Positions 1 to 28,148 of a stretch of DNA of 64,000 bases are shown in pieces. The stretch is from Pocillopora verrucosa (Eukaryota > Cnidaria > Anthozoa > Scleractinia > Pocilloporidae). The translations under genes and the position numbers were made by a program. The notes under the pieces are model-generated. The model was given only the letters and a program-made list of their open reading frames with translations. It ran no database searches and was not told where the DNA came from. Each line of letters starts with the position of its first letter. Position 1 is the first letter of the stretch. The DNA lies in assembly GCF_036669915.1 (NCBI RefSeq), contig NC_089315.1:23503936-23567935 (forward strand), given 5' to 3'.

Positions 1-716
1 ATAAATTTGACTAATGGGCCTAAAACATTTAAGAAATTCACGAGAAAAACAACACTAGAGGTAGGGAAGTTATCGGGCAATGTTCCCGTTTCTATGTGCT
101 CTTTCTCAGCAATTGGTTTAACGATTTTCTTCCTCGTTTGCAATTATTGAGTACAAAATTTTTTTATTGAAGAGTGAAGTGTTGGATTGATTGCTGAGTC
201 GAGCGTCAAAATATATATCTACTACGGCAACTGTACAAGTTCTATATTATTGGGGTCTTTTTATTATTATTACCATTTTGATAAAGTAATGAAAATTAAA
301 CCTTTTTATGCAAATGCCTTGTTATCTCTATGCAGTTGAAAGAAAAAAAAAATACACCGCCGGTACAGTTTTTTGAGGATTTCCTATTTTGTCTTCAAAG
401 AATCTTAGACTCCTTTGAGACTATTTCTTAGAGTTACATGAGCACTCTTTTTGAATCCATAAATAGCATAAATGATGAGCTCACCAGGAAAATTGTGTCT
501 TATTCGACATTTGAATTAGATTATTATGCAAAACTTTCGTAATTTGTTCATTCCAACTTGTCATTGAAGAATTTTTAATGTTTATTTCCCTTCCGCCTCG
601 TTTAGCTTCGCTATTTTGTGGGTAGGGATTGTTACATGTGTATTTCAATTGTTAAGGAAAATATGTTTATTGTAAGGTGTTTTAGTTCCCGAAACAATTG
701 TCTGGAACAAACATTG
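1..716. repeat. 3' flank of GPCR unit A (no gene)
   Basis: I see no gene here. The block is one of four copies of the sequence downstream of the GPCR genes; the others begin near 7200, 21330 and 27058 and share the same start (a stretch beginning ATAAATTTGACTAATGG or close variants). The array therefore probably continues to the left of the window. A TTTATT at about 665-670, read on the minus strand as AATAAA, lies just past the stop codon of the first GPCR and could be its polyadenylation signal. Confidence 0.7.
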
Positions 717-1718
717 TTACTCGGACGTCACTGGGCCAAGTTCATGTTCTTCTTGTTCAATTTGTCCCTGTGTGCATGAGCACAAAGTCATCGACCCACA
801 AGATAAGATACGGCGAAACTCGCTCCTGAATGTAGAATTCATTCCTGCATATATGATGGGATTGACAGTGTTTGAAATGTAAAGAAAAAACATGCACAAC
901 AGTTCCAAATTTCTTGGCAAGTGTGATACTAATGAAAAACGTCTTATTATGACTATAACCCAGAGAGGAATCCAACATGCCAAAAAGGCAAAAACAACAA
1001 TGAATAGCGACCTGCTTAGTCGAATTTCTTGAATAGAAATGCGCGCGTCGTTCCTCCCGAATCCTCTCAACGCGGGAGAAATCCCTGTCAGATGTTGACG
1101 AACAACTTTTAGAACTCTCGAGTAACCAAAAGTTGTGGCAACCAAAGGGATGACAAGAAAAAGTGTTAAAACTATTATGTAGTGGATGAACTTGGCACTT
1201 TCCCCAAGGTGTTTGAGAGAACATTGCGCATAGCCAGGCACAAATTCAAAGTCTTGCAATTTGGCCAGTTTTGGAATTGCGATGTAACAAGCCACAAACA
1301 ACCAGAGGAAAAGCACCCATAAACGAGACTTTCTGAGTGAAAATATTATCTGGTAGGTTGTGTTTGGTTTGCATATGCGAACATATCGGTTCACAGCTGT
1401 TAAACCCATGGTTGCCGGTGAGACGTAGACCACGAAGATACTCATGAAGGCGTGAAATTGGCAAATGGTTTCTCCAAGCGACCATTTTCCTGTGAACAGT
1501 ATTATTTCACTGAGAGGCATCACAAAGACAGCGGAGAGCAAGTCGCTCACAGCCAATGCTATGATATAAAGATTCGTGGGGGTGCGCAATCTTGGATTTC
1601 TGTAAACAGATAAGCATACCATGATATTTCCTGCCAGTGAGAGGAGGTTTAAAACGACCAAAGAGGAGCCTTCTAAGATAACCAGTGCTAAACTTCTTGA
1701 TGCAAGATCATCGGCCAT
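717..1718 (-). CDS. Melatonin-receptor-like class A GPCR, array copy 1
   Basis: Intronless seven-transmembrane receptor of 333 aa at the plasma membrane; it would signal through heterotrimeric G proteins. Rhodopsin-family landmarks are present: TM1 Asn31, TM2 LAVSD with Asp59, TM3 Cys86 paired with ECL2 Cys166, NRY at 110-112 in place of DRY, TM6 CWIP at 248-251, and TM7 NPIIY at 286-290. The NRY motif followed by V-R-I-C resembles melatonin receptors, but those have NAxxY in TM7, so the ligand is unproven. Cysteines at 307, 313 and 315 could be palmitoylated. The short N-terminus has no N-glycosylation sequon. The start ATG sits in a good context (AAGATGG) and is shared by all three copies. 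It is part of a tandem array with 8468-9469 and 22817-23818. The frame is fully open, so it is probably functional. Confidence 0.9.
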   Translation of the reverse strand: MADDLASRSLALVILEGSSLVVLNLLSLAGNIMVCLSVYRNPRLRTPTNLYIIALAVSDLLSAVFVMPLSEIILFTGKWSLGETICQFHAFMSIFVVYVSPATMGLTAVNRYVRICKPNTTYQIIFSLRKSRLWVLFLWLFVACYIAIPKLAKLQDFEFVPGYAQCSLKHLGESAKFIHYIIVLTLFLVIPLVATTFGYSRVLKVVRQHLTGISPALRGFGRNDARISIQEIRLSRSLFIVVFAFLACWIPLWVIVIIRRFSLVSHLPRNLELLCMFFLYISNTVNPIIYAGMNSTFRSEFRRILSCGSMTLCSCTQGQIEQEEHELGPVTSE

Positions 1719-3482
1719 CTTAGGTAACTGCGCTTCCTTGTCTCAGTTGTAGCTTAAAGTGAACGCAACGAGAAAAAGCAGCACACTGCTAAAAATCAAG
1801 TAAAAATGCTAATATATGGCACTATTGTTGTCCACCAAAAACCGGAATACCGGCCAATATTTCCATATAAAGAAACCGAAAAAACCACGGATCTTACGCT
1901 TAAGAGGAAGAAAAAGCAAAGATCTTACAACAAGCAAAAACAGCTCTTTTTGATTCACGAAACCGATATTCGGTTTTGGATATCATGACAAAATCCAAAA
2001 TATGGGCATGGTAAATATGGCCATGTTGAAAAGTGCTTGTCGAAGTAAGGTCTTATGTAAACAGGAAATGTCTGCCTCTTGCTAAAATTAGTAAATCTCG
2101 GAATAACTTTGGCTGAGGCGCTCTTGAACTACATCCCTGTTTTCTGGTTTAGTTCTGTTTCCTCTCATTTATATTTAGAAATGTTTTTTGCTGTAAACAT
2201 CTTAACTTAAAATAGTGGAATTTAATTTGAAGATGTGTTTATGACTGTTTGTATTTTAAAACTACTTTGTATTAAAACTGCAAAGCGTGGCAAATTGCTC
2301 AATGATATCGTCCTCGAGGCTATAAGCGCTGGTTTTTATTCAAGTCGTGCAAAAAGGTAAGTTGTGCTTTTAGCCAAACGTGACTGAAGTGAAACGTAGA
2401 CCGAAAGATTTCTCAAGTGTTTCAGGTCTCTAAGCTGAAGTATTTAAAATCGAAAGCGACTAATTTCCATCAGTATTTTTGAGCTTTTAGTAAATCGTAA
2501 CTCAGACATTATTTAAGAACCAGTATTATGGAATGAAAGATAATTACAGTCAGAAACATAATTGTAGTAGTTTTAGAAATTGAAATGTCAGCCCTAGACT
2601 GAAATCGAACCCACAATAGTCGGGCGATACTTTAGCAACTGAGGTAGTGAAACAACTGTGAGGAAGTGATCAGTGCATCTCAGTCTTTGCAATACGCGCG
2701 TGAAGGACGAATAGAGCAAAAGTGAATCGATCAAAATTATATATTTGAATTGCGGAATAAAGATGCTCTTAGACAGAGACCATTTAGCTGAAGCTAGAAA
2801 CGAATCGAAGTAGTTGTGAAAATGAAGGCGGAAAATACCATTTAGGCTTGGACAGATTTCGAAGAAATAACCCTCCTGCGATATCGACAGTGTGAGATAA
2901 TCAAGAATTAACAAGCCAACTGGGAGCTTGTCACGATAACAACTCTTTATTTTCTTCTAACGAAAGATTTCTAGGATATTTAACTTTTTTCCTCTCTTGT
3001 AGTTTTCACACCCCGAAGCAACAATATGATCACTCAGCAAAACTGTGAGACATACTGACAATTACAATTTGAGGCGGTACATCTGCTATTAGTGATGCAA
3101 TTTTCTGATAATAATCTTGATGAGTGACCATGATAAAGAGCAAGTACTCAACTTTCCATTTGACGGAAAGAAAGCCGACCCTCGTCTTGATGATATTATG
3201 ATAAACACATAACTACTTCCCAATTAAATGACCAATGACAGGACTTCTCGTTGTTTCGTGTTACCTTCTCGAAAACAACTCGAAAATGAAAGATTTATTC
3301 GGAAAATGGCAGAAAGTTGTTTTATTTAACTGCCGACATTGGACGATAATACACGAAAACGGTCGATTGTTACGGAGTTACTCACTAAGGAGTCTCCATA
3401 GAGATCTTACTTGCTCCAAAGATACAAATTTTGTTTGCACGAGCCTGATAATCCGGAAACTGATTTTGACCGAATTCAGATA
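1719..3482. repeat. 5' flank of GPCR unit A (duplicated block)
   Basis: This is the upstream (promoter-side) region of GPCR copy 1. It is repeated, diverged, at about 9470-10905 and 23819-26180, and partly again at 13017-13625 (matching about 1939-2560). I find no convincing coding exon. It probably holds the receptor's promoter and 5' UTR. Two tRNA-like SINE heads lie within it. Confidence 0.65.
2590..2925 (-). repeat. tRNA-derived SINE-like sequences (two heads)
   Basis: Read on the minus strand, about 2655-2590 looks like a tRNA body with a box-B-like GGGTTCGATTTC, and about 2925-2840 reads like a second one (TTAGCTC box-A-like part and a TTCGAA box-B-like part). Both occur at matching places in the other GPCR units (10320-10390 and 10575-10660; 24670-24745 and 25525-25610), so they were inserted before the units duplicated. 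The cloverleaf was not folded rigorously. Confidence 0.35.
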
Positions 3483-4290
3483 ACGAAAACCTGAATTCCT
3501 CTCTCTTATTTCAGTGAGATGTTTGTACATGGGTATCTTTTTCCTTTTTAGGGAATTATCCAAGGAACAGTTCCTTACTTGGGCATATTTCTAACCGACC
3601 TTATGATGTTAGATGCCGCCTATCAAGATTTCACTGAGGCGAGAGGGACTGGGCATCATCATTTCTTCTTGTTACATAAGCCACTACCTTTTCCCGAATC
3701 TTATTCTGGCCTTAAACGGGCCAGAATCAGAAATTCGGTTTGGTTTTTTCTCTGCAGGAAAATGCACAATAGGCGCTTCGTGGTAGTTTTTAATTGGCGT
3801 AAAGCAATGTGGTGGACATTGTGCATTGGACATTGCAGTTGACATGAGTTTTGGCATTGAGTATATTCAGACTTGAAGTGCTAGGCCGCGCTTAAACGTT
3901 AGCCAAGCTTGTTACAGTTTACTCTTATCCGTCGAATAACCTTAAAAAATATTTATTTAAAGGACAAACCTAATACTGTGAAAGTCCCTGCTGCATATCT
4001 TTAATTTCAATCAGTCGAAAAACTTGCGGTCCATAAAATACCTTCTTTGGTATTTATTGAGCGACTGTGAGGCGAAAACTTTATTTAAGAACGGAAAATA
4101 GGGGAATTTGGCTCGTGCTGGCTCCGTGACTCAAGCTAAGTCACAAAGTGACTTATTCCTTTACTGTTGACTTTGCCGCGGTACTTACGTGAGTCCCCGC
4201 ATTTCATTCAGCGATTTTAGCATTTCCAATTTGTCATGGCATCAACTTGTTCCAAAGTCTTAATCTCCACAACGCTTCGTTAGTGATTCT
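3483..4290 (+). repeat. Duplicated block X, direct copy, with a hairpin
   Basis: The block runs from CCTGAATTCCTCTCTCTTAT to the region around the TTGTTCCAAAGTCTTAATC motif. It is present again in reverse orientation at 14135-15172. Its middle (about 3698-3731) has an inverted repeat CTTATTCTGGCC / GGCCAGAATCAG around a 7-nt loop, so a small hairpin element is probably embedded. The left end (to about 3660) is also found at 26100-26290 next to GPCR unit C. I see no gene. Confidence 0.7.
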
Positions 4291-4315
4291 GTTTGTTGCT
4301 TTTTTTCTCTTGTTA

Positions 4316-4445: not shown

Positions 4446-4474
4446 GGGTGACTGTTGGGATAAATAAATTTGTT

Positions 4475-4660
4475 TTAGGAACGGGGGGGAGGGGGGGGGG
4501 AGAGGGGAGGAGGAGGAGTAGGGGTCGGAGGAGGCTCCGTTATATAATTATTATGATCGATAGTCTCCCCTTTATACTCTGTTGGCGACGACTGGTTCCC
4601 CGTCCGTTACCTCCGAAAACCATGTTATTCCCTCGAAAATCCCCCTCCTTATGGTCTACT
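4475..4660. mobile_element. Poly-G/C-bordered MITE, partial copy
   Basis: A G-rich tract (about 4480-4530) is followed by a segment with GCGACGACTGGTTCC and AAAACCATGTTATTCC, shared with elements at 16400-16520, 46211-46423 and 48817-49044. The C-tract terminus is missing, and the element abuts the start of duplicated block Y. Confidence 0.5.
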
Positions 4661-6000
4661 GTGTGTCATTGCGTATTTGTGTTGAGGGGAAGAAATGATC
4701 TGATCAAAAAGAAAATTAAGGTTTGATTTTGGGCAGATACACTAGAATATAATGGCTGTTATGCAGACTTACGGGGATGGGCAAAGGGGGTTGGGGGGGG
4801 GGGGTGTCAATCAGCAGCGCTCATTGGTTCATATAAACAAATAAGGCCGATTTCTTGTTATGATCTTGGAGTTTTTCTTGACAGAGATGGAGTCGCTTGC
4901 AACCCAATGATTTTCGTTATTAAGCTAAGGCTCCTGGAATCAGAGGCGCTCGCCAATGATAATCTGGCTTTGCCTTTGATTTTCACCAATTTTCTTTAAA
5001 GAAATCTCATAGTTTTCACATTTTAGGAATTTTATCCTGCCAATCATTTAAAAGCAGAAAAAATAGAGGTTATAAAGGCAATTTCCTCGCTATTTGCAAT
5101 TTTGTTTTTTCTTCGTCCATCTCAAATATGGTCGTATAAAATTTTTTTTTATCAACAGGCCGACTAGGAACGATACAAATATGTTTAACGGTCCAGAAAA
5201 TCTTAGGAAATTTCACCGAAGGAAAGGTCGCAAAACATTAGGTAATGGAATAAAACTTCGCCAAGATCTATATCTGAGCATGTGTAAACTTTCCAATCTG
5301 TCGCGATCTGTCACCTTTTGGCAATCTTTCCCGCGGTGTTTTCTTTTCAGTTGACCTCTTTTTCAGGCGTAGAAGGCCTATGAATATTACGAGTGCAGTT
5401 GCTGAAAACCCTCGATTCCATCACATAAACACTGGGCTGTGTTAAACTGTTTTTAACATACCTTTTCAGATGAGAGTCGTGCGATCGTATCGAGCCGCCA
5501 TGTTTGTTTTGCATGTTGACGCTTTTGAAGCTCGCGTTATGTTCGCACCCAGATCTTGCGCGGCCAAAAACCCTATGGAGTCTCCTTAAAGACATCAAAA
5601 CTCAGACTAGACTTCCCTGTCATTCTCTTGCCTTGATTTTCCGATTTTTTTCCATTTGCAGGCGAGCTAGTCATACCAGACAATGCGAATGTGTACTACG
5701 CCCTGAACTTAAGTATGGAATCTTTGCTGTTCAAACTCAAGAAAAAGGAAGATGAAAAGCCGAGCTGAGGTATGTTTTCGAGTTTGTTCCCATGTTTATT
5801 GTAAAGTTGCGTTTTACAAGTATCGTTTCGAGAAGCTGAATTGAAGAATGACAGGTTCTTATTAGTGAAAATCATTGGAATGGCCAGTGAATACTTGAGC
5901 CTTTGATCGCCGCTCGTAAATGAAATTTTCAGGAAACGTTTTATTGTGACAATTTAAAGTGGTTAATTAAACAATTTTTTTCTCGAGTAGTTGTCAGAAA
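4655..6000 (+). repeat. Duplicated block Y, copy 1 (carries a RalGDS-type last exon)
   Basis: This copy corresponds to 17268-18896. Homology starts at TTATGGTCT and runs to AAAAAGGGTGAGG. Apart from the terminal exon at 5662-5768 I see no coding exon that can be confirmed. The upstream RA-domain exons present before copy 2 are absent here. Confidence 0.75.
5662..5768 (+). pseudogene. Orphan last exon of a RalGDS-like RA domain
   Basis: After a good acceptor (TTTCCATTTGCAG) the sequence encodes, in phase 1, E-L-V-I-P-D-N-A-N-V-Y-Y-A-L-N and ends in a Lys/Glu-rich tail with a TGA stop. The I-P-D-N-A-N-V-x-Y-A-x-N block is the hallmark of the C-terminal half of the Ras-association domain of RalGDS/RGL proteins, which bind active Ras-family GTPases. 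No partner exons precede it in this duplicate, so it is probably a dead fragment unless captured by another transcript. It differs from the copy at 18546-18652 by one Leu/Ser change before the Met and by the stop codon (TGA against TAA). Confidence 0.7.
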
Positions 6001-7200
6001 AAGGGTGAGGGTCACCTTTATAAGCGGTGACCCACACTTTCCTAGAGAGATCAGAGCTAGTCCCCGTTATGCCTGAGTTGTAGATCTCTGGTGTCGTGTT
6101 TATTATTCAATAAAATTTCAACATGTAATTTGTTAAATGTGTATGATCTTTTTTTTAATTTCAACTAATAACTTTTAACTTCACTAGAATTACAGTAAAT
6201 TATTACTTTACAATCTTTTACGCGTATCACAATGGTAATATTACAATCTTTTTCTTACAATCATATAATACAGCAATGTACAATTATTTGATACAGTTTT
6301 TCTTGTCCCCATCTGACCTCCCCCACCACACCCACCTGGTGGAACTAGTGGAACTTAATATGTACTGCCGTTGTGAATGGGGCATTAGTAACTCAGTTAT
6401 GCCTGAGTTGTAGATCTCTGGTATCGTATTTGCTATTCGATAGAATCTCAACATGTCATATATAAAATGTGTCTGATTTTTTTTTTTAACTTCAGATTTA
6501 ACTGATGCAGAGGTGACATCCTATGACAGGATTAAGAGATGTTTTCATCCACTTTCTGGTCAGCCATCCCTACAGTTTGCCGATGCCGAATCAGGTTCTC
6601 GCCTCGCAAGGAATAGAAACTCTTTGACCAAGAAGTCGCTACGAGGTGCCCGTCATTTAAGAATTTAAGTCAGGGGCAATACATTCGTACACAAATTTCC
6701 GGATAATCGTCCACCGAGCGGTAACAACTTCAGAACAATATGATGCAAGAGCGCAATGTGATTGGCTAGTCAAATGTGCACTTGACTTTTACAAATATTC
6801 GCTGGGTTACCATTTTATGCGCATGCGTTCCAATGCTCTGTTAATAATACACAATTTTTGTATATAAATTTTAAAAATTAAATGATCTTACGTCAGCCCA
6901 GAAATGTATTTTGAGGATTTAGTTTAACCTTGTCAACATTACTAAGATAACTGAGGTAGATAATACATTTTTAATTGTATTTTATGGAAAAGAGACATAA
7001 ATCTAAATTACTTGAATTACTTAAGTTATTTTTTCAGTTGCGAATATGTTTATCTAGAAGCCATAGAGAAGGCGAAGTTTTAATGGTTTTCAAAAGGTTT
7101 TTGAAATGCAGTTTGCCTAATCAGGATAAAATTTCGCCGCAAAAGTTTCATTTGCCTGTTGAGATTTTCCAACTAATCAATGATGTGAACCTTGAAAAAA
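6000..7200. repeat. Duplicated block Z, copy 1 (no gene)
   Basis: Matches 19871-21330 and, for its last third, 26705-27057. Inside it an approximately 85-bp segment starting TATGCCTGAGTTGTAGATCTC occurs twice (about 6070 and 6397), with an AATAAA in the first. The block leads directly into the 3' flank of GPCR unit B. I see no coding exon with support. Confidence 0.65.
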
Positions 7201-8467
7201 ATGAATTTGACTAATGAAACTAAAAAATATTGAAGAAATTCACAGGAAAAACAACACTGGAAGTAGGGATGTTATTGTGCAATGTTCCCGTTTCTATGTG
7301 CTCTTCCTCAGCAATAGTTTTTACAATGTTTTTCTTCGTCTACGATTTTTTGAGTACAAAAAAAATTTTGAGTACAAAATTTTTTTATTGAAGAGTTAAG
7401 TGTTGGACTGATTGCTAAATTTAGCGTCAAAATATATATCTCCTACGGCAACTGTACAAGTTCTATATTACTGGGTTTTTTTATTATTATTACTATTTTA
7501 ATAGATTAATGAAAATTAAACCTTTTTATGCAAATGCCTGTGTTGCCTTGTTATATGTTAATTATTATTACTATCATTATTATTTTCATCGTTATTATTA
7601 TTAGTATTATTATTATCATTCTTATTATCATAATTATTATCATCATTATTATTTTCATTTATGTTATGATACAATCTTTTTGAAAATCTATATCCTACCT
7701 ACTTACTACTTTGCTAAAAGAAAAATAATTTTTAATTTTAATATAGTAATGCAAAATAAATTACATCATGTTTATCTCCATGTATCCTGGACTAAAAACA
7801 AGGGAGAAAATATAAAATGCTACATGAATAAAAAACTTGTAATTATCATGAACCTCATCATCGTTATTATTATTACTACTTTAATTTTAGTATTATCGTT
7901 TTTTTTTTATTTCTTGCAGTAAATACTTTTGTGAACTCGAATCCTTCTCCAGGAATTCTGGTCAGCAGGTGATCTGTGATTTTATTGGCTGAACTATTTC
8001 TACAAATACAAACTCTCACAGGCTAATTTCTTTTACCAGGGAGTTACGGAGAAGCTACGGCAATTGACACCCTATTAAATATTGTAATAACTTCACAGAT
8101 CTCTTTGCAGTTGAAAGAAAAAAAATTACACCGTCAATGCAGTCTCCTGAGGATTTCCTATTTTGACTTCAAAGAATTTAAGACTCCTGTGAGACTATTT
8201 CTTAGTGTTAGATGAGCACCTTTTTCAAACCCATAAATGGCAGTGTTTTGTATATCGCCGGAGCTCACCAGAAAAATTATGTCTAGTTCGACGCTTGAAT
8301 TAGATTATTATGTGAAACTGTCGCAAGTTGTTCATTCCAACTTTTCATTGAAGAATTTTGAATGTTTATTTCCCTTCCGCCTCGATTAGCTTCGCTATTT
8401 TATGGGTAGGGATTGTTACATGTGTATTTAAATTGTCAAATAAAATAAATTTATTTAACAGACCTTG
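7200..8467. repeat. 3' flank of GPCR unit B with ATT microsatellite
   Basis: Second copy of the GPCR 3' flank. An ATT/ATC-rich microsatellite (about 7555-7675) interrupts it; the same place is microsatellite-rich in units C (21690-21990) and D (27400-27490). No gene. A TTTATT near 8450 may be the minus-strand polyadenylation signal of GPCR copy 2. Confidence 0.65.
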
Positions 8468-9469
8468 TTACTTAGACGTCACAGGGCCAAGTTCGTGTTC
8501 TTCTTGTTCATTTTGTCGCTGTGTGCATGCGCACAGAGTCATCGACCCACAAGATAAGATACGGCGAAACTCGCTCCTGAATGTAGAATTCATTCCGGCA
8601 TATATGACGGGATTGATAGTGTTTGAAACGTAAAGAAAAAACATGCACAACAGTTCTATATTTCTTGGCATGTGTGATACTAATGAAAAACGTTTCATTA
8701 TGACTATAACCCAGAAAGGAATCCAACATGCCAAAAAAGTAAAAACAACAATGAAGAGGGACCTGCTCAGTCGAATTTCTTGAATGGAAACGCGCGCGTC
8801 GTTCCCTCCGAGTCCTCTCCACAAGGGAGAAATCCCTCTCAGATGTTGACGAACAACTTTTAGAACTCTCGAGTAAGAAAAAGCTGTGGCAACCATAGGA
8901 ATGACAAGAAAAAATGTTAAAACAATTATATAGTGGATAAGCTTGCCGCGTTCCCCAAGGTGTTTGATAGAACATTGCGCATAGCCAGGCACAAACTCAT
9001 AGTCTTGCAATTTGGTCAGTTTCAGAATTGCGATGTAACAAGCCACAAACAACCAGACGAAGAGCACCCATAAACGAGACTTTTTGGGTGAAAATATTTT
9101 CTGGTAGGCTGTGTTTGATCTGCACATACGAACATATCGGTTCACAGCTGTTAAACCCATGGTTGTCGGTGAGATGTAGATCACGAAGAGATTCATGAAG
9201 GCGTGAAATTGGCAAATGGTTTCTCCAAGCGACCATTTTCCTGTGAACAGAACTATTTCAGCGAGAGGCATCACAAAGACAGCGGAGAGCAAGTCGCTCA
9301 CAGCCAATGCTATGATGTAAAGATTAGTGGGGGTGCGTAATCTTGGATTTCTGTAAACAGATAAGCATACCATGATATTTCCTGCCAGTGAGAGGAGGTT
9401 TAAAATGACCAAAGAGGAGCCTTCGAAGATAACCAGTGCTAAACTTCTTGATGCAAGATCGTCAGCCAT
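8468..9469 (-). CDS. Melatonin-receptor-like class A GPCR, array copy 2
   Basis: Intronless 333-aa receptor, collinear with copy 1 without gaps. It keeps the TM1 Asn, TM2 Asp, TM3 and ECL2 cysteines, the NRY motif, CWIP in TM6 and NPVIY in TM7. Compared by eye with copy 3 it differs at about 31 of 333 residues, roughly 91% identity, with changes scattered over ECL1, ECL2 and ICL3. Distinctive residues include Lys in place of Arg after the TM6 V-I-V-I-M stretch and a Leu-Trp-Arg stretch in ICL3. The C-terminus H-E-L-G-P-V-T-S-K is conserved. The frame is intact, so it is probably a live paralog of unknown ligand. Confidence 0.9.
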   Translation of the reverse strand: MADDLASRSLALVIFEGSSLVILNLLSLAGNIMVCLSVYRNPRLRTPTNLYIIALAVSDLLSAVFVMPLAEIVLFTGKWSLGETICQFHAFMNLFVIYISPTTMGLTAVNRYVRMCRSNTAYQKIFSPKKSRLWVLFVWLFVACYIAILKLTKLQDYEFVPGYAQCSIKHLGERGKLIHYIIVLTFFLVIPMVATAFSYSRVLKVVRQHLRGISPLWRGLGGNDARVSIQEIRLSRSLFIVVFTFLACWIPFWVIVIMKRFSLVSHMPRNIELLCMFFLYVSNTINPVIYAGMNSTFRSEFRRILSCGSMTLCACTQRQNEQEEHELGPVTSK

Positions 9470-10905
9470 CTTAATTAACTGCGCTTTCTTGTCTCAGTTG
9501 TAGCTAACAGTGAACACAACGAGAAAAAGCAGCACACTGCTAAAAATCAAATCAAAATGCTGAGATATGGCCCGAAGCACTATTGTTAACCATCAAAAAC
9601 CGGAATACCAGCCAATATTTCCATATAAAGAAACCGATCTTACACCCGTGAGAAAGAAAAGGCAAACCTTACAAAAAGCGAAAACAGCTCTTTTTGATTC
9701 ATAAAACCGATATTTGGTTTTGGACATTACGACAAAATTCCAAATATGGGCACGGTAAATAAGGGTATGGTAAGGAGTACTTGTCGAAGTAAGGTCTTAT
9801 ATAAGCAGGAAATATCTGCCTCTCGCCAAAATTAGTAAATCTCGGAATAACTTTGGCTGAGGCGCTCTTGAACTTCAGTCCTGTTTTCTAGCTTCGTTCT
9901 GTTTCCTCTCATTTATATTTAGAAACGTTTTCTGCAATAAATATCTTAATGTAAAATAATGAAATTTAATTTAAAGAATGTGTTTATGACTGTTTGTATT
10001 TTAAAAAACTACTTTGTAATTAAACTGCGAAGCGTGGGAAATTGCTCAATGATATCGTCCTCAAGGCTACAAGCGTTGGTTTTTATTCAAGTTATGCTTT
10101 TAGCTAAACGTGACTGAAATGAAACGTAGACCGAAAGATTTCTCAAGTGTTTCAGGCTCTGAGCTGAAGTGTTTTAAATCGATAGCGACTAATTTCCATC
10201 AGTATTTTTGAGCTTATAGTGAACCGTTGCTCAGACATTGTTTAATAACCAGTGTTATGGAATGAAAGATAATTACAATCAGAAACACAACTGTAGTGGT
10301 TATAAAAATGGGAAAGTCAGCTTTAGAGTTAACACGAACCCATAATAGTCGGGCGATACTTGCGCAACTGAGATAGTGAAACAACTGTGAAGAAGTGATC
10401 TGTATGTCAATTTCGCAATACACCCGTGAAGGGCGAATACAGCAAAAGTAAATCAACCGAAATCATATATTTCAATTGCGGAATAAAGATGCTGTTAGAC
10501 TGATACTATTTAGCTGAAGCTAGAAACAAAACCGAAGTAGTTGTGAAAATGAAGACGGAAAATACCACTCAGGCTTGAACAGAATTCGAACAAACGACCC
10601 TCCTGGGGTATCGACAGCGTGATTTAACCAAGAGCTAACAAGCCAACTGAGAGCTTGTCACGATAACAACTCTTTATTTCCTTTAACGAAAGATTTCGTG
10701 AATGTTTTAACTTTTTTTCCCTCTTGGAGTTTTTACACTCCGAAGCAACATCATTATTACTCGAGCAAAACTGTGAGACGTAATGATAATTACAATTTGA
10801 GGCGGTACATCTGCTAATAGTGATGCAATTTTCTGATAATAATCCTGATGACTGATCATGGTAAAGAGCAAGTACTCAACTTTCCATTTGACTGGAAAGA
10901 AAGCC
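9470..10905. repeat. 5' flank of GPCR unit B
   Basis: Diverged copy of 1719-3190. Homology to unit A is lost at about 10905, soon after CATTTGACTGGAAAG, where unrelated sequence and a LINE follow. It includes both SINE-like heads (10320-10390, 10575-10660). No gene is seen, and the 10906-11080 stretch after it is AT-rich and unassigned. Confidence 0.6.
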
Positions 10906-11079
10906 TTTATTTTTTTAAATTCTTTTTTATTCTTTATTCTATGTGCAAAAAAAAGAAAAGTGAGATAGTTTGCCCCGCAATAGCTGCAAAGCTAATCGTG
11001 GCAGGGCAAGACAAGTACATGAATAACACAAATGACCTAATATCTAAAGACAAGGAGTCACTGACTCTTAAATGATAAC

Positions 11080-14134: not shown

Positions 14135-15172
14135 GCGGTTCAGAGCGTTATGGAGATTAAGACTTTGGAACAAGTTGATGCCATGACAAATTGGAAATAC
14201 TAAAATCGCTACATGAAATGCGGAAACTAACGCAAAGTACCGCGGCAAAGTCAACAGAAAAGGAATAAGTCACTTTGTGACTTAGCTTGAGTCACGGAGA
14301 AATCCAGAATGGTGGTAACCATCCAACTCTGCAAAATAATAAACGCATACCCCGGGCATTCCATTAAACCAGTACTAAATAGAATCCTACGTTTATCAAA
14401 TTTCCGGTTGAGAAAGTTCACCAACTTTAAACGCTGCTATTCAAATCTTTCTCTGCCTGCACGAGCCAAATTCCCCTATTTTCCATTCCTAAGTCAAGTT
14501 TCGCCTCACAGTCTCTCCATAAATATTTACACTTGAACGTGATGATCTTTGTTTACAAAGTTTTCTCCCGCTTACATCTAAGAACAAACCTCTGAAGGTT
14601 TCTGCCTCTGAACGATATACCACAGAAGGCATATTATGGATTGCAAGTTTTTCGACTGACTGAAATTAAGATAGGTAGCAGTGACTTTCACAGTATTAGG
14701 TTTGTGCTTTAAATAAATATTTTTAAGTTTACTCGAAGGATAAGTGTAAACTGTAAGAAGCTTGGCTATGGTTTATGCGCGGCCCAGCACTTCAAGTCTA
14801 AGTACACTCGATGCCAAAACTCAACCTTGTTCCCAGGCTATGTCCACCACATTGCTTTACGCCAATTAAAAACTGCCACGTAGCGCCTATTGTACATTTT
14901 CCTGCAGAGGAAAAACCGAACCGAATTTCTTATTCTGGCCCGTTTACGGCCAGAATAAGATTCGGGAAAAGGGTGGAGGCTTATGTAACAAGAAGAAATG
15001 ATGATTCCCAGCCCCTCTCGCCTCAGTGAAATCTTGATAGGCGGCATCTAACATCATAAGGTCGGTTAGAAATATGCCCGAATAAGAAACTGTTCCTTGG
15101 ATAATTCCCTAAAAAGGAAAAAGATACCCATGTACAAACATCTCACTGAAATAAGAGAGAGGAATTCAGGTG
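14135..15172 (-). repeat. Duplicated block X, inverted copy
   Basis: Reverse complement of 3483-4290. The motif CATTTCCAATTTGTCATGGC side lies at the left and the CCTGAATTCCTC side at the right. The embedded hairpin is perfect here: CTTATTCTGGCC and GGCCAGAATAAG around about 14931-14961. The extra length over the direct copy comes from an insertion of roughly 0.2 kb around 14290-14500. No gene. Confidence 0.75.
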
Positions 15173-18652: not shown

Positions 18653-18896
18653 GGTATGTTTTCGAGTTTGTTTCCATGTTTATTGTAAAGTTGCGTTTTA
18701 CAAGTATCGTTTCGAGAAGCTGAACTGAAGAAGGACAAGTTCTTATTAGTGAATATCATTGGAATGGCCACTGAATACTTGAGCCTTTGATCGCCGCTCG
18801 TAAATGAAATTTCCAGGAAACGTTTTATTGTTACAATATAAAGTGGTTCATTAAACAATTTTTTTTCTCGTGTAGTTGTTAGAAAAAGGGTGAGGC
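17268..18896 (+). repeat. Duplicated block Y, copy 2
   Basis: Counterpart of 4655-6000. It contains a G-run and a C-run near 17440 and 17565, and the last exon of the RalGDS-like fragment. Both copies also have a well-shaped 68-nt cryptic exon (here about 18008-18075), discussed under findings. Confidence 0.75.
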
Positions 18897-19870
18897 ATTG
18901 AGGTATTTCATAAACCTAACTTATCTCCACAGCTAAAACACGTTTTGAATTGTGTTAAAAGACAAAATTGGCATCTAGCAGGAATTTTCATTATAGGTGA
19001 TTTTTGACTTATGTGAACGTTGAAAATGAATGGAAATAATATATTGGCATAAGCCATTCAGTAAACATTGTAATAAGCCTGTTGACCATTTCTTATTCCT
19101 TTTGGCGGTCTTGCCTTACAGGTAGAGCTTGGTCACCTTTTTCCTTATTATGATCGTGAATTTGACACGGAGACAAATGTTTTTGCGTAAGCTGCGGTTT
19201 GTGGCTAGATATCATTATATTTCCATTATGTTGCTAAAAGATGATTAATTACTAAGAAAATTACCCTAACGTTTAAAAATTGATCCCGTGCAGGAATTTT
19301 CTGGAAATAATCCTCCTTTATACTTTTACCCATTTATTACTCTCGTTTTTAGGCCAAATCCATGTCGAATTCCCGATCCGGAAAATAGTTTTTAATTTAG
19401 CACGTTCAACACCTCTTTTTCTTAGAGGCGAATCAAAGTATAAACATTTAGCACTTTTCATCTTCCGCACTGAATTTGTAATCAGATAACTTATACGACT
19501 AGCACGTAGCTCTTTTAGGGGCGCCCTCTCTTTTAGCGGCGCTCTTTTAGGGTACGCCCTCTCTTCTCCGAATTTTCTGTTTATTCTGCTGTTATGCGAC
19601 AGTCTTCAAATATTATTTTCTTTTAAGGTGTCTTTTCAAGTATGATTTTGATCCTGTCAGTAAGTTTATGATAATTTTTAAATTGTCAATCTTGTTTCTG
19701 TTTCGCTCAACCTTGACCGTAAGACTAAGAAACTTAAGGTAGAAAGTCATTTGGAAACCGTAAACATCGCGAAGGTATCTACTTAGTATGCGAACTCCGC
19801 TCTGCGTAGCTAGCGTGATTCGCTAGTTAAGTGTAAAAGCATGACGAAGGTTAGAGATTGACAGCTCGGT
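18897..19870. other. Segment present only between Y and Z in the second set
   Basis: At the equivalent point of the first set (near 6008) block Y runs straight into block Z, so these roughly 970 bases are either an insertion here or a deletion there. No gene is recognised. A short direct repeat with GCGCCCTCTCTT / ACGCCCTCTCTT lies near 19520-19562. Confidence 0.5.
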
Positions 19871-21330
19871 AAGCGTCACTTTTATAAGCGGTGACTCACA
19901 CTTTCCTAGAGAGACCAGAGCTAGTCTCCGTTGTATTAACTTGAGTAATTAAGGAGAGAATAAAAGAAATAGTCAACCGAACGACGAGTGTTAGGAATTT
20001 ACTACCAACTGAATTGTTTTCCTGATAGAAAGGGGCTTAAACTGATGTTTGTCGACTTCACATTTAGCTCAATTGAAACAGAATTTAGTGATCATTCGAA
20101 CCAATCAGTCAGGTTTTCTGGTGATATTTTTATTTAGTCCCAATTGGTGGAACTTAACATGTTCTGCCGTTGTGAATGGGGCTTAGTTACGCCATTATGC
20201 CTGAGTTGTAGGTCTCTGGTGTCGTGTTTATTATTCAATAAAATTTCAACATGTCATTTATAAAATCTGTATGATCTTTTTTTAACTTCAACTAGTAACT
20301 TTTACTTCACTAGAATTTCAGTAAAATATTACTTTACAACCTTTTTACGCGTATCACTATGGTAATATTACAATCTTTTTCTTACAATCATATAATACAG
20401 CAATGTACAATTATTTGATACAGTTTTTCTTGTCCTTATCTGACCTCCCCCACCACACCCACCTGGTGGAACTAGTGGAACTTAATATGTACTGCCGTTG
20501 TGAATGGGGCATTAGTAACTCAGTTATGCCTGAGTTGTAGATCTCTGGTATCGTATTTGCTATTCGATAAAATCTCAACATGTCATATATAAAATGTGTC
20601 TGATTTCTTTTAACTTCAAAATTAACCGATGTAGAGGTGACATCTTATGACAGGATTAAGAGATGTTTTCATCTACTTCCTGGTCAGCCATCCCTACAGT
20701 TTGCCAATTCCGAATGAGGTTCTCGCCTCGCAAGGAATAGAAACTCTTTGACCAAGAAGTCGCTACGAGGTGCCCGTCATTTAAGAATTTAACGTCAGGG
20801 GCAATGCATTCGTACTCAAATTTCCGGCTAATCGTCCACCTAGCGGTAACAACTTCAGAACAATATGATGCAAGAGCCCAGTGTGATTGGCTAGTCAAAT
20901 ATGCACTTGACTTTTACAATTATTTGCTGGGTTAGCATTTTATTCGCATGCGTTTCAATGTTCTGGTTATAATACACAATTTTTGTAAATAAATTTTAAA
21001 AATTAAATGATCTTACGTCAGCCCAGAAATGTATTTTGAAGATTTAGTTGAATCTTGTAAACATTACTAAGATAACTAAAGTAGATAATACATTTTTAAT
21101 TGTATTTTATGGAAAAGAGACATAATCTAAATAACTTGAAATAATTTTTACAAGTTTTTTTTTCAGTTGCGAATATGTTTATCTAGAAGCCATAGAGAAG
21201 GCGAAGTTTTAATGGTTTTCAAAAGGTTTTTGAAATGCAGTTTGCCTAAACAGGATAAAATTTCGCCGCAAAAGTTTCATTTGCCTGTTGAGATTTTTCA
21301 ACTAATCAATGATGTGAACCTTGAAAAAAA
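19871..21330. repeat. Duplicated block Z, copy 2
   Basis: Matches 6000-7200, including the internally repeated TATGCCTGAGTTGTAG segments (about 20197 and 20523). The first set is about 200 bp shorter before the first internal repeat. No coding exon. Confidence 0.65.
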
Positions 21331-22816
21331 TGAATTTGACTAATGGAACTTAAAATATTTAAGAAATTCACCAGAAAAACAACACTGGAAGTAGGGATGT
21401 TGTTACGCAATGTTCCCGTTTCTATGTGCTCTTCCTCAGCAACAGTTTTAACGATCTTTTTCTTCGTCTAAGATTTTTTGAATACATAAAAAATTTTTAG
21501 TACAAAATTTTTTATTGAAGAGTTAAGTGTTGGACTGATTACTAAATTTAGCGTTAAAACGTATATCTCTTACGGCAACTGTACAAGTTCTATATTACTG
21601 GGTTTTTTATTATTATTACTATTTTAGTAGATTAATGAAAATTAAACCTTTTCATGCAAATGCCTGTGTTGCCTTGTTATATGTTAATCATTATTGCCAT
21701 CATTATTATTTAAGTCGTTATTATTATTATTATCATTATTATTATCATAATTGTTATCATCATTATTATTTTCATTTATGTTATGATACAATCTTTTTGA
21801 AAATCCATATCCTACCTACTTACTACTTTGCCAAAAGAAAAATATTTTTTAATTTTGATATAGTAATGCAAAATAAATTATATCATGTTTATCTATCTAT
21901 TATTGTTGTCATTATTATTTTCGTCTTTATTATTTTTATTTTTATTTGTATAATTATCATTATCATCGTTACTATTTTTGTTTTGTTGTAATACAACCTT
22001 TGTGAAAATCCAGACCCTACCTACTTACTACATTGCTAAAAGAAAAATTATTTTTTAAATTTGATTTAATTATATAAAAAAAATTATATCATGTTTATCT
22101 CCATACATCCTGGACTTAAAACAAGAGAGAAAATATAGAATGCTACATGAATAAAAATTGTTACTATGAATAAAAAATTTGAAATTATTATGAACCTCAT
22201 CATCGTTATTATTGTTATCACTTTAATTTTACTATTATCGTTATTTTTTTTATTTCTTGCAGTAAATACTTTTGTGAACTCGAATCCTTCTCCAGGAATT
22301 TTGGTTAGCAGGTGATCTGTGATTTTATTGGCTGAACCATTTCTACTAATATAAACTTTGTTTTCACGAGCTAATTTCTTCTACCAGGGAGTTACGGAGA
22401 AGCTACGGCAATTGACACCCTATTAAATATTGTAATAACTTCACAGATCTCTTTGCAGTTGAAAGAAAAAAAATTACACCGTCAATGCAGTCTCCTGAGG
22501 ATTTCCTATTTTGACTTCAAAGAATTTAAGACTCCTGTGAGACTATTTCGTAGTGTTACATGAGCACCTTTTTCAAACCCATAAATGGCAGTGTTTTGTA
22601 TATCGCCGAAGCTCACCAGAAAAATTATGTCTTGTTCGACATTTGAATTAGATTATTATGTGAAACTGTCGCAAGTTGTTCATTCCAACTTGTCATTAAA
22701 GAATTTTTAATGTTTATTTCCCTTCCGCCTCGGTTAGCTTCGCTATTTTGTGGGTAGGGATTGTTACATGTGTATTTAAATTGTCAAATAAAATAAATTT
22801 GTTGTAACAGACCTTG
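21331..22816. repeat. 3' flank of GPCR unit C with expanded microsatellites
   Basis: Third copy of the GPCR 3' flank. ATT/ATC-type microsatellites at about 21690-21790 and 21905-21990 flank a repeated phrase (ATCCTACCTACTTACTAC, twice in this copy against once in B), which indicates local expansion. No gene. Confidence 0.65.
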
Positions 22817-23818
22817 TTACTTAGACATCACTGGGCCAAGTTCGTGTTCTTCTTGTTCAATTTGTCGCTGGGTGCATGCGCACAAAGTCATCCACCCACA
22901 AGATATGATACGGCGAAACTCGCTCCTGAATGTAGAATTCATTCCGGCATATATGACGGGATTGATAGTGTTTGAAACGTAAAGAAAAAACATGCACAAC
23001 AGTTCTATATTTCTTGGCATGTGTGATACTAATGAAAAACGTCTCATTATGACTATAACCCAGAGAGGAATCCAACATGCCAAAAAGGTAAAAACAACAA
23101 TGAATAGCGACCTGCTCAGTCGAATTTCTTGAATGGAAACGCGTGCGTCGTTCCCTCCGAGTCGTCTCAACGAGGGAGAAATCTCTGTCAGATGTTGACG
23201 AACAACTTTTAGAACTCTCGAGTAAGAAAAAGCTGTGGCAACCATAGGGATGACAAGAAAAAGTGTTAAAACAATTATGTAGTGGATTAGCTTGCCGCGT
23301 TCCCCAAGGTGTTTGATAGAACATTGCGCATAGCCAGGCACAAACTCATAGTCTTGCAATTTGGCCAGTTTTGGAATTGCGGTGTAACAAGCCACAAACA
23401 ACCAGACGAGGAGCACCCATAAACGAGACTTTCTGGGTGAAAATATTTTCTGGTAGGTTGCGTTTGATCTGCACATACGAACATATCGGTTCACAGCTGT
23501 TAAACCCATGGTTGCCGGTGAGACGTAGAGCACGAAGAGACTCATGAAGGCGTGAAATTCGCAAATGGCTTCTCCAAGCGGCCATTTTCCTGCGAACAGT
23601 ACTATTTCACCGAGAGGCATCACAAAGACAGCGGAGAGCAAGTCGCTCACAGCCAATGCTATGATGTAAAGATTAGTGTGAGTGCGTAACCTTGGATTTC
23701 TGTAAACAGATAAGCAAACCATGATATTTCCTGCCAGTGAGAAGAGGTTTAAAATGACCAAAGAGGAGCCTTCGAGGATAACCAGTGCTAAACTTCTCGA
23801 TGCAAGATCGTCGGCCAT
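22817..23818 (-). CDS. Melatonin-receptor-like class A GPCR, array copy 3
   Basis: Intronless 333-aa seven-transmembrane receptor, gap-free against copies 1 and 2. All class A landmarks are kept: the NRY motif, the TM3 and ECL2 cysteines, CWIP and NPVIY. Copy-specific substitutions include His for Pro after R-L-R-T in ICL1, Glu for Gln after the TM3 Cys, and Trp for Ser near the C-terminal cysteines. Its flanks are closest to unit B, so B and C probably share the more recent duplication. The intact frame in all three copies points to purifying selection. The ligand is unknown; a melatonin-like receptor is the best guess from NRY and TM7 context. Confidence 0.9.
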   Translation of the reverse strand: MADDLASRSLALVILEGSSLVILNLFSLAGNIMVCLSVYRNPRLRTHTNLYIIALAVSDLLSAVFVMPLGEIVLFAGKWPLGEAICEFHAFMSLFVLYVSPATMGLTAVNRYVRMCRSNATYQKIFSPRKSRLWVLLVWLFVACYTAIPKLAKLQDYEFVPGYAQCSIKHLGERGKLIHYIIVLTLFLVIPMVATAFSYSRVLKVVRQHLTEISPSLRRLGGNDARVSIQEIRLSRSLFIVVFTFLACWIPLWVIVIMRRFSLVSHMPRNIELLCMFFLYVSNTINPVIYAGMNSTFRSEFRRIISCGWMTLCACTQRQIEQEEHELGPVMSK

Positions 23819-26300
23819 CTTAGGTAACTCCGCTTCCTTGTCTTGTAGCTAGCAGTGAACACAACGAGAAAAAGTAGGACACTGCGAAAAATCAAGTCAA
23901 AATGCTGAGATATGTCTCGAAGCACTATTGTTGCGCATCGAAAACCGGAATAATGGCCAATATTTCCATAAAAAAACGAAAAAGCGATCTTACACCCGTG
24001 AGAAAGAAAAGGCAAATACCTTACAAAAAGCGAAAACAGCTCTTTTTGATTCATAAAACCGAAATTCAGTTTTGAATATTATAACAAAATCCTGAACATT
24101 GGCATGTTAAGGAGTGCTTGTCGAAGTAAGGTCTCATATAAACATTGACGAGGAAATATTTTCCTCTTGCTAAAAATAGTAAATCTCGGAATAACTTTGG
24201 CTGAGGCGCCCTTGAATTACATTCCTGTTTTCTGGCTTAGTTATGTTTCCTCTTATTTATATTTGGAAATATATTTTGTTGTAAATCTCTTAAATTAAAA
24301 TAATGAAACTTTATTGAAAGAATGTGTTTATGGCTGTTTGTATTTTAAAAAATCACTTTTTAATAAAACTGCAAAGCGTGGCAAATTGCTCAATGATATT
24401 GTTCTCGAGGCTATAAGCGTTGGTTTTTATTCAAGTTGAGTGACAAGACATTTTCTACTTTTCGAGAAACGTGACTGAAATGAAACGTAGACCGAAAGAT
24501 TTCTCGAAAGTTTCAGGTCTCTAAGCTGAAGTATTTAAAATCGAAAGCGACTAATTTCTTTCAGTATTTTTGAGCTTTAGTAAATCGTAATTCATACAAT
24601 ATCAAAAAACAATATTATGTAATGAAAGAAAATTATAGTCAGGAACACAACTGCTGTAGAATATTAATAATTGAAATGTCAGCTCCAGACTGGACTCGAA
24701 CCCATAATAGTCGGGCGATAGTTTAACAGCTGAGATAGTAAAACAACTGTGAGGAAATGATCTGTATGGCAGTTTTCGCAATACGCGCGTGAAGGGCGAA
24801 TACAGCAAAAGTTAAATTATATATTTGAATTGCGGAATAAAGATGCTTGTAGACAGATATCGTTTAGCTGAAGTTGGAAATAGAATCGGAGTAGCTGTGA
24901 AAATGAAGAAAACATCATTCAGGCTTGGACAGAATTCGAACAAACGACCCTCCTGCGATATCGACAGTGTGATATAACGAAAGATTTTGTGGATATTTTA
25001 TTTTTTTCTTTCTCAGAGTTTTTACACTCCGATGCAACATCATGATCGTTTGATAAAAATTGTGAAACAAACTGAAAATTACAATTTGAGACGGTACATC
25101 GGCTTTTCTGATAATAATCTTGATGACTTACCATAGCAACTAGCAAGTACTCAATCTCCCATTTGACGGAAGGAAAGTCGACTCTCGCCCTGATAATATT
25201 GCAATAAGTACATAACTACTTGCCAATCTCGCAATACGCTCGTGAAGAGCGAATACAACAAAACTTAATCAATCGAAATCATATATTTGAATTGCGGAAT
25301 AGAGATGCTCTCAGAGAGATACCGTTTCGCTGAAGCTAAAAACTAAATCGATGTAGATAGAAATAGTAGGGACGGTAAGTTTTGAGCTCGCTAAAGAATT
25401 AAGAAGGTCTGAGGTTCGATTCCTCATGGGGACTCAGAATTTTTTCTTTGTCCCACGCTCGTGACAAGACGAAAAAACATCTTTCCTAAAACAGATGTAG
25501 TTGTGAAAATGAATGCGGAAAAGATTTCGAACAAACGACCCTCCTCCGATATCGACAGTGTGATATTAACCAAGAGCTGACAAGTCAACTGGGAGCTTGT
25601 TACGATAAACACTCTTTACTTCATTTAACGAAAGATTTCGTGGGTATTCTTTTTTCTCGTTTGGAGTTTTTACACTCCGAAGCAACATCATAATCACTCG
25701 AGAAAAACTGTTAGACGTACTGACAGTTACAATTTGAGGCGGTACATCTGCTATTAGTGACGCACTTTTGATGATCGAATAAGTACTCAATTTTCCATTT
25801 GACGGAAAGAAAGACGACCTTTGTCTTGATGATATTTCGATAAGCGCATAATTACTTGCCAGTTAAGTGGCAAATAACTGGAGTTCTCGTTGTTTCGAGT
25901 TACCTTCCTGACAACAACTCGAAAATGAAAGATTTACTCGGAAAATGGCGGAAAGTTGTTTTATTTTACGGCCGATATTGGACGATAATACACAAAAACA
26001 GCAGATTTTTACGCTAAGGTGTCTCCATAGAGATATTAATTGCTCCAAAAACACAAATTTTGTGCGCGCGAGCCGGAAAATCCGAAAAACTGATTTTGAC
26101 CGAATTCAGAAAACGGAAACCTGAATTCCTCTCTCTGATTTTTGTAAAATATTTGTACCTGGAGATCTTTCTTCTTTTCAAGGGAATTATCCAACGAACA
26201 ATTCCATACTTAGGTACATTTCTAACCGACCTTATGATGTTAGATGCCGCCTATCCAGATTTCACTGAGGTGAGAGGAACTAGGCATCATCATCCTCCGT
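23819..26300. repeat. 5' flank of GPCR unit C
   Basis: Diverged copy of the 1719-3660 region, with an internal partial duplication: the SINE-like head and the phrase TCGAACAAACGACCCTCCT occur twice (about 24938 and 25528). A young SINE sits inside it (25357-25493). The right end (25800-26290) matches 3210-3660 and so includes the start of block X. No coding sequence is recognised. Confidence 0.6.
25357..25493 (+). mobile_element. tRNA-derived SINE with 7-bp target duplication
   Basis: A 137-bp insertion lies between two GATGTAG copies (25350-25356 and 25494-25500). A near-perfect pol III box B, GGTTCGATTCC, lies at about 25413. The tail contains TTGTCCCACGCTCGTGACAA. The equivalent positions in units A (about 2803) and B (about 10535) have no insertion, which fixes the element's ends and shows it arrived after the units split. 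Confidence 0.75.
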
Positions 26301-26704
26301 ATTACATAAGCCACCATATTACTTAAGTCATCATTTTACATAGTTAATGCTGGAATGGACTCTGGACTCTAGATTTAAGGTCAGAGTGGGTGTTAGGCGA
26401 GAAACACAGCGCTCGAAGTAGTCATCCCCAAACTAGCAACTGTTAGGGAAATCTGGGAAATTGCAGTGCGGGGGAGGGTGGGAGTTTGGTGGAATGGAGT
26501 TTGTGTTGTACCAGTGTCGTGTCTTTCACTCGGACTCGTACTCCGTCGTCACTTTTTTCTCCGTCGTCACTTTTTTCTCCGTCGTCACTCTTTTCTTCCC
26601 TCCTTGCCTAGACGCAGCTTGAGCTCGATAAATTCTTCCCATCAATCAGTTCGCAAATAAGAAGCGACTAGATACGAGTCTGCCTCTCACTTGAATTAAC
26701 AATT
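26301..26704. other. Unassigned spacer
   Basis: No gene. A 14-bp phrase CTCCGTCGTCACTT(TTTT) is repeated in tandem about three times near 26546-26595. It lies between the end of unit C and a partial block Z. Confidence 0.4.
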
Positions 26705-27057
26705 TCAGTCAAAGGCAATTCATTCGTACACAAATTTCCGGCTAATCGTCCACCGAGCGGCAACATCTTCAGAACAATATGATGCAAGAACGCAGTGTTA
26801 TTGGCTAATCAAATGTGTACCTGATTTTTACTAATATTCGCTGGGTTAGCATTTTATGTGCATGTGTTCTAATGCTCTGTTGATAATACACAATTTTTGT
26901 AAATAGATTTTAAAATCAAATGATATTACGTCGGCCCAGAAATGTATTTTGAGGGTTTAGTTGAATCTCATCATCTGATCAGGTTAAAATTTCGTTGCAA
27001 AAGTTTTATTTGCCTGTTGAGATTTGCCAACTGATCAATGATGAGGACCTTGAAAAA
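26705..27057. repeat. Duplicated block Z, partial third copy
   Basis: Starts AGTCAAAGGCAATTCATTCG and corresponds to about 6668-7200 and 20795-21330, with an internal deletion. It leads into unit D in the same arrangement as before units B and C. Confidence 0.65.
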
Positions 27058-28148
27058 ATAAATTTGACTAATGGAACCTGAAACATTGAAGAAAATTCAC
27101 GAGAAAAACAACACTGGAAGTAGGAAAGTTATCGTGCAATGTTCCCGTTTCTAAGTGCTCTTTCTCAGCAACTGGTTTAACGATCTTCTTCTTCTTCGTC
27201 TACAATTTTCTCGGTACAAAATTTTTTTTGTTGAAGAGTGAAGTGTTGGACCGATTGCTGAATCAAGCGTTAAAATATATATCTATTACGGCAACTGTAC
27301 AAGTTCAATATCACTAGTTTCTTTATTATTTTTTTTTAATAGACAAATGAAAACTTAACCTTTTAATACAAATGCCTGGGTTGCTTTCTTATATGTTAAT
27401 TTTTATTGTTATCATTATTATTTAAGTCTTTATTATTATCTTTATTTTTATAATTATCATTATCATCGTTACTATTTTTATTTTTGTTATAATACAACCT
27501 TTGTGAAAATCCAGATCCTACCTACTTACTACATTGCTAAAAGAAAAATTATTTTTTTAATTTTGATTTAATTATATAAAAAAAATTATATCATGTTTAT
27601 CTCCATACATCCTGGACTTAAAACAAGAGAGAAAATATAAAATGCTACATAAATAAAAATTGTTACTATTTTAAATCTCATTATCGTTATTATTACAGCT
27701 ACTTTAATTTTACTCTTAGTACTATTATTGTTGTTAATTTTATTCTCAGCAGTAAATACTTTTTTTGAACTTGAATCCTTCTTCAAGAATTTTGGTCAGC
27801 TGGTGATCTGTGATTTTATTGGCTGAACCATTTCTACAAATATAAACTTTGTTTTCAGAGGCTAATTCCTTTTACCTGGTAGTTATGGAGAAGCTACGGC
27901 AATTGACACCCTATTAAATATTGTAATATCTTCACAGATCTCTTTGCAATTGCAAAAAAAATTACGCCATCAGTGCAGTTTTTTGAGGATTTCCTATTTT
28001 GTCTCTTTAAGACTCCTATTTGCCTCATTCTCAGTATTGCATGAGCACCTTTTTTAAATGAGATCAAGGCAGCTGCATGCATAGATACTCATAAATGGCA
28101 GTTTTTTGTATATCGCTGGAGCTCACCAGAAAAATTATGTCTTATTCG
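27058..28148. repeat. GPCR unit D: 3' flank only, receptor lost
   Basis: Fourth copy of the GPCR 3' flank, recognisable through the CAATTGACACCCTATTAAAT and GGAGCTCACCAGAAAAATTA motifs. Homology stops near 28148, about 300 bases before the receptor stop codon would be expected, and a minisatellite region follows. No trace of receptor coding sequence is seen, so the array ends here by truncation. Confidence 0.7.

Follow-up and report, generated by a model that had tools for sequence, protein, structure and literature searches.

The first 28.2 kb of the 64-kb window (our term for the whole stretch of DNA analyzed) contain three full-length class A GPCR genes, receptors A, B, and C, together with two receptor-less pieces of the same repeating unit, D and E. 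The arrangement is real, not due to chance, and of an ordinary kind, that of recent local gene duplication, with its latest readable step bounded to a few hundred bases. We consider it quite likely that the locus is a young tandem array, ordinary in kind, of intronless class A GPCR genes to which units were added by recombination, the last readable step being the copying of a single block that relates B to C and accounts for E.

Layout of the Array

Self-BLAST of the window (E up to 1e-10, pairs of at least 120 columns counted) gave 39 aligned pairs, 33 of which had both sides in the first 28.2 kb or were repeats of its neighbors. The array is composed of the following features.

1–716, minus strand: 3′ flank of unit A, truncated by the window edge (self-BLAST)
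717–1718, minus strand: receptor A, 333-aa intronless class A GPCR (ORF; Pfam 7tm_1, E = 3.9e-42)
1719–3684, minus strand: 5′ flank of unit A, the closest relative of piece E over 1937 to 2556
4648–7777, unstranded: A-B linker running into the B 3′ flank (self-BLAST)
8468–9469, minus strand: receptor B, 333-aa intronless class A GPCR (ORF; Pfam 7tm_1, E = 1.8e-42)
9470–10905, minus strand: 5′ flank of unit B (self-BLAST and alignment)
10906–13017, minus strand: seam stretch between unit B and piece E, with no match to other units
13018–13626, minus strand: piece E, a receptor-less copy of the 5′ flank (self-BLAST, 92% to A 1937–2556)
14144–15171, unstranded: inverted copies of linker segments lying within 3489–4276 (self-BLAST)
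17264–21894, unstranded: E-C linker running into the C 3′ flank, a copy of the A-B linker (self-BLAST)
22817–23818, minus strand: receptor C, 333-aa intronless class A GPCR (ORF; Pfam 7tm_1, E = 4e-43)
23819–25227, minus strand: 5′ flank of unit C (self-BLAST and alignment)
25231–26316, minus strand: further, partial copy of distal 5′ flank sequence next to unit C (self-BLAST)
26696–28154, minus strand: piece D, a short linker piece plus a receptor-less 3′ flank, at the right end of the array's matching sequence

Flank-plus-coding blocks of 2.9–3.1 kb are common to the units, with self-BLAST identities of 87% (A-B), 83% (A-C), and 88% (B-C) that lie far above chance and bear out an earlier sequence-only reading in which the receptors were said to share 5′ and 3′ flanks. 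Its statement that block order varies between units was likewise correct: linker segments recur in inverted copies, the C-D linker is a shortened relative of the other linkers from which part of the A-B linker is absent, and the distal 5′ flank is doubled beside C (24776–25227 and 25231–26316). The E-C linker carries an insert without a match at about 18896–19867, and by self-BLAST the 3′ flank of unit A is missing the stretch that B carries at about 7545–8098. Matching sequence extends to base 1, so the window cuts off the array on its left. The 2.1-kb seam stretch holds a degraded non-LTR retrotransposon (LINE-type) on the minus strand, with a reverse transcriptase piece at 11740–12144 (RVT_1, E = 5.4e-16). 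A 33-bp minisatellite of 6.7 copies lies at 28248–28467, about 90 bp past the right end of piece D.

Each receptor ORF runs from ATG to stop in a single exon, and all three cover the Pfam 7tm_1 profile from end to end (1–260 of 260), confirming the earlier call of three intact 333-codon intronless receptors. Protein identity is 86% (286/333) for both A-B and A-C and 91% (302/333) for B-C, and 61 of the 333 residues vary among the three. An NCBIfam search with the three proteins gave no match, and tblastn of the three against the 64-kb window at E < 1 found no further receptor piece beyond A, B, and C themselves and one 45-column match. That match, at 15355–15489, was taken as chance (E = 0.76). 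Searches for relatives of receptor C returned eight pattern matches in viral contigs and 31 in bacterial and archaeal genomes, none of them confirmed. On the same strand, a 155-codon ORF in another frame overlaps each receptor (757–1224, 8508–8975, and 22857–23324, minus strand); it is open in all three copies and is likely a by-product of coding composition.

Boundaries of the Proposed Latest Duplication

Upstream of the start codon, B and C differ by 9.5% in the first 200 bases and by 13.5–21% in six windows beyond. A two-rate fit placed the step at position 1712 in A coordinates, with 4.3% vs. 14.5% divergence on its two sides (0 of 200 permutations fitted as well) and a 2-log-unit support interval of A 1671–1970. 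This interval contains the left edge of piece E (A 1937), so that the copied block starts and ends at about one homologous position. Divergence is even over the proposed block. It is 5.9% in the A-E flank (608 sites) and 4.8% in the coding region; for the linkers, two stretches of the A-B linker (4906–6010 and 6064–7777) aligned to 17765–21894 gave 5.7% (1094 sites) and 5.3% (1696 sites). The noncoding divergence of the block, about 5.5% and used as the neutral B-C value, comes from the A-E flank and these two linker stretches (3398 sites), the 3′ flank at 7660–8467 and the linker at 4648–4906 being left out. Successive windows of the B-C 3′ flank diverge by 13, 5, 1.5, and 4.5%, the 13% window adjoining a local duplication.

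The 5′ flank of B is 14.5% diverged from that of C and 11.7% from that of A. Because the A-B comparison gives similar values in the 5′ flank and the 3′ flank (13.9%), a generally faster 5′ flank fails to explain the B-C step. Site patterns are in line with the step. In the 3′ flank and coding region, B and C grouped against A at 92 of 149 two-state sites, but in the distal 5′ flank they did so at 42 of 181 (Fisher p = 1.4e-12). The test left out gap columns, three-state sites (nine outside the proximal 5′ flank), and the 220 columns of 5′ flank nearest the start codon, in which 16 of 33 sites grouped B with C. Receptor C adjoins a 5′ flank older than its own coding region. In the 3′ flank tree, B and C grouped at 100% ultrafast bootstrap with D outside. 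When the 3′ flanks of A, B, C, and D were compared, A stood 25–27% from the others vs. 14% in the gene-proximal stretch; the higher values were taken as misalignment over the stretch missing from A and were therefore not used. Taken together, the self-BLAST blocks, the divergence step, and the even divergence of the block support the view, put forward in the sequence-only reading, that the amplification was local and recent.

In the latest step that can be read, a single period of the array would have been copied. The copy would have begun about 220 bp upstream of the A start codon, taken in the linker and the whole of B, and been placed to the right of B, where it would form piece E, the E-C linker, and receptor C. 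At its right end, this block would then join the older 5′ flank of C where, homologously, the left edge of E begins, and such joining would be expected of homology-guided recombination, either unequal crossing-over or break-induced replication, which we infer to be the pathway. Plain unequal crossing-over predicts E directly after receptor B, yet the 5′ flank of B and the LINE-bearing stretch intervene, so one extra step is needed. Other points also count against this history: in a tree of the four 5′ flanks (A, B, C, and E), C joined E at 68% support, whereas informative sites (seven A+E, three C+E, and no B+E) and distances favor A+E; one of the four B-C 3′ flank windows is the 13% one; and omega is not significantly below 1 (see below).

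Receptor-Less Pieces and Rival Histories

Where a fourth, receptor-less unit had been reported, the count proved too low: piece D is real, but a second receptor-less piece, E, accompanies it. The 3′ flank in D begins at 26975, left of the 27058 given earlier; 26975–28154 aligns to 7117–8296 at 79% (self-BLAST) and ends about 170 bp before the position homologous to the B stop codon. At about 14% from B and C, and outside the B-C pair, D predates the B-C split, and it may be the array edge or a deletion product. Piece E, the close relative of A, differs from both B and C at about 12% of aligned sites. Since the copied block would start and end at about one homologous position, E was probably copied with no receptor in it and not left behind by receptor loss.

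Three other histories were weighed against block copying. D and E could be remnants of full units whose receptors were deleted, through birth and death of genes; the rearranged neighborhood, with its inversion, missing stretches, and LINE, is compatible with this, and the divergence of the D flank makes it old enough for a later loss. On balance this origin is rather doubtful, given that tblastn of the window found no remnant except the chance-level match and that the left edge of E falls within the block-boundary interval seen independently in B-C. B and C could also be old duplicates whose coding regions and 3′ flanks were later homogenized by gene conversion that spared the old 5′ flanks, an account in keeping with a step so close to the start codon (a few hundred bases at most) and with the one 3′ flank window at just 1.5%. 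However, divergence is similarly low across the A-E flank and the 2.8 kb over which the linkers were aligned, for which one duplication suffices, and gene conversion as the main cause of the B-C likeness was set aside as unlikely on this ground; among coral tandem duplicates, moreover, it is apparently not common, as far as the available text of one survey goes (PMC10236652). An assembly artefact, such as uncollapsed haplotypes, is hardly credible: although tandem arrays are prone to assembly error, divergence between copies ranges from about 5% to 17% or more, indels are numerous, rearrangements reach the kilobase scale, and the divergence step follows the unit structure. Block copying within a young tandem array is our preferred history.

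Selection on the Receptors

Older purifying selection is visible in the split between A and B/C, whereas since the B-C split intact frames are the main argument for constraint. The constraint tests were picked after seeing the data, and their P values are uncorrected for the number of tests. All three pairwise coding alignments are free of gaps over 1002 columns vs. 20 (A-B), 21 (A-C), and 16 (B-C) gap events in the flanks, in agreement with the earlier remark that the flanks are rich in indels and the frames gap-free. At flank or block rates, 11.3 coding gaps would be expected for A-B (Poisson P = 1.3e-5) and 5.3 for B-C (P = 0.005). Compared with the flanks, the coding regions are less diverged for A-B (p = 1.9e-4) and A-C (p = 5.3e-7), but for B-C the coding value of 4.8% is not lower than the 5.5% of noncoding sequence in the same duplicated block (p = 0.38). 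In the A vs. B/C split, BLOSUM62 scores are negative for 7 of 35 replacements vs. about half in simulation (P = 0.0007), and the observed mean score was reached by none of 1500 neutral simulations. After the B-C split, 12 of 32 replacements score negatively (P = 0.10; mean score P = 0.23), which is not significant.

Pairwise dN/dS was 0.54–0.63 by NG86, 0.54–0.59 by LWL85, 0.67–0.84 by YN00, and 0.75–0.86 by maximum likelihood. A three-sequence codon model, in which the omega = 1 null was fitted at six grid values of kappa, gave omega of 0.815 (p = 0.34) and 0.792 (p = 0.29) under two frequency models, neither distinct from 1. Among 96 branch-assigned changes, 64 are nonsynonymous vs. 69.3 expected (P = 0.14) and none creates a stop (P = 0.037), where the neutral expectation scatters changes with the transition bias of the flanks. 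The idea that the copies are decaying under no constraint can draw on these omega values, on the near-neutral share of nonsynonymous changes, and on B-C coding divergence that is no lower than noncoding. We nevertheless regard decay as very unlikely in view of the stop-free changes, the absence of coding indels (P = 0.005 for B-C), the conservative replacements on the A split, and the class A motifs intact in all three copies. The case for selection made in the sequence-only reading therefore stands for the indel-free frames, for A-B and A-C coding divergence below that of the flanks, and for the A-split replacements, but not for B-C divergence nor for dN/dS, the measure it had itself put forward. 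In the history proposed here, the receptors are kept as full-length 7TM proteins, with purifying selection visible on the older split but little of it after the B-C split.

Receptor Identity and Ligand Pocket

Class A receptors are marked by D2.50, E/D/N-R-Y at the end of TM3, CWxP in TM6, NPxxY in TM7, and a cysteine pair linking TM3 and ECL2. All three copies have these hallmarks, as D59 (D2.50), N110-R111-Y112, C248-W249-I250-P251, N286-P287-x-x-Y290, and C86 with C166. Their best match among solved structures is melatonin receptor 1A (MT1; E = 5.7e-31 for A, 6.9e-33 for B, and 7.9e-32 for the profile), with beta-adrenergic and histamine H2 receptors close behind in this ranking by sequence match.

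Aminergic receptors anchor the amine through D3.32, and opsins bind retinal at a lysine at 7.43. Position 3.32 is S, N, and S in A, B, and C, and 7.43 is Y in all three, so both the amine anchor and the opsin lysine are absent. The melatonin receptor family typically has NAxxY in TM7, and here all three copies have NPIIY or NPVIY vs. NAIIY in MT1. The positions of N255 (6.52) and H195 (5.46), which presumably have a role in MT1, are occupied by W and F. Of the MT1 residues N162 and Q181, described in the available text as hydrogen-bond partners of melatonin-type ligands, N162 is critical for activation (PMC7080406). The N162 (N4.60) position is L151, or K150 if a nearby gap is shifted by one, and that of Q181 (ECL2) is H170, in each case the same in all three copies. 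With the melatonin anchors, the amine anchor, and the opsin lysine all absent, we predict from these residues that A, B, and C are receptors for a small ligand or peptide and not melatonin receptors; most likely the ligand would be a small extracellular molecule or a peptide, though not melatonin, and signaling would run through a G protein. The earlier description of the receptors as melatonin-like thus applies to their nearest solved sequence, but does not extend to the residues that anchor melatonin.

The copies differ at pocket positions 2.61, 2.64, 3.32, 3.33, 3.36, 4.57, 4.60, 6.51, and 6.58. With a working list of pocket positions and helix limits set by hand, 9 of 32 pocket positions vary vs. 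26 of 179 other transmembrane positions, an enrichment that is suggestive but not significant (Fisher p = 0.07). One tentative reading, which we consider rather unlikely, is that of a young chemosensory set in which frames are kept while the ligand pocket diversifies. Under such a reading, the copied receptor beside an older, different 5′ flank would mean that receptor and regulatory region were reshuffled together in one step.

Other Features of the Window

At 39215–40171 (plus strand), another intronless ORF, of 318 aa, resembles class A receptors. Its nearest solved structures are serotonin and dopamine receptors, and tblastn of this ORF against the window returned only the self-match. A peroxiredoxin-like exon (AhpC-TSA) at 31411–31767 (plus strand) has an inverted DNA copy at 45018–45475 (minus strand), about 13.4 kb away and 73% identical, which gave no Pfam match in the one frame tested. 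Two tandem UDP-glucuronosyltransferase-like genes occupy 51137–59622 (minus strand), with DNA blocks 76–91% related. A long ORF at 37153–38052 (minus strand) has no Pfam match and, judged by eye, we take it to resemble the end of a LINE reverse transcriptase. Rfam at the gathering threshold and ARAGORN found nothing over the window.

Comparison With Known Systems

Most cnidarian GPCRs are described as lacking a known ligand (PMC11087051, in the text available). Naming with respect to melatonin varies among the available texts: some coral genes have been named as melatonin receptors (PMC4320547; PMC4878875), putative melatonin receptor transcripts are mentioned for sea anemones (PMC4169136), and melatonin receptors are listed as likely missing from Pocillopora damicornis (PMC9897584). 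Receptors A, B, and C resemble vertebrate MT1/MT2 in the NRY at the end of TM3, and MT1 is their best solved match, but they are unlike these receptors at N162, Q181, NAIIY, N255, and H195.

For what it may offer, the array is a clean worked case in which one duplication is bounded and a piece without a receptor is accounted for with no need of gene loss, and it lends itself to asking whether fresh copies acquire expression patterns or ligands that are new. Among amplified families of reef corals, rhodopsin-like GPCR was the commonest domain (34 of 192 amplified orthogroups in the available part of PMC10236652), and those receptors resemble the present array in their local tandem amplification. 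For tandem expansions in Acropora, unequal crossing-over or break-induced replication has been proposed, with nearby transposons helping (PMC12314368), a recurrent-duplication mechanism like the one suggested here. The Acropora expansions concern other gene families ("GPCR" has no occurrence in the available text of that paper), whereas here the boundaries are read on one array. As far as the available portions of both sources go, the array fits the patterns that they describe.
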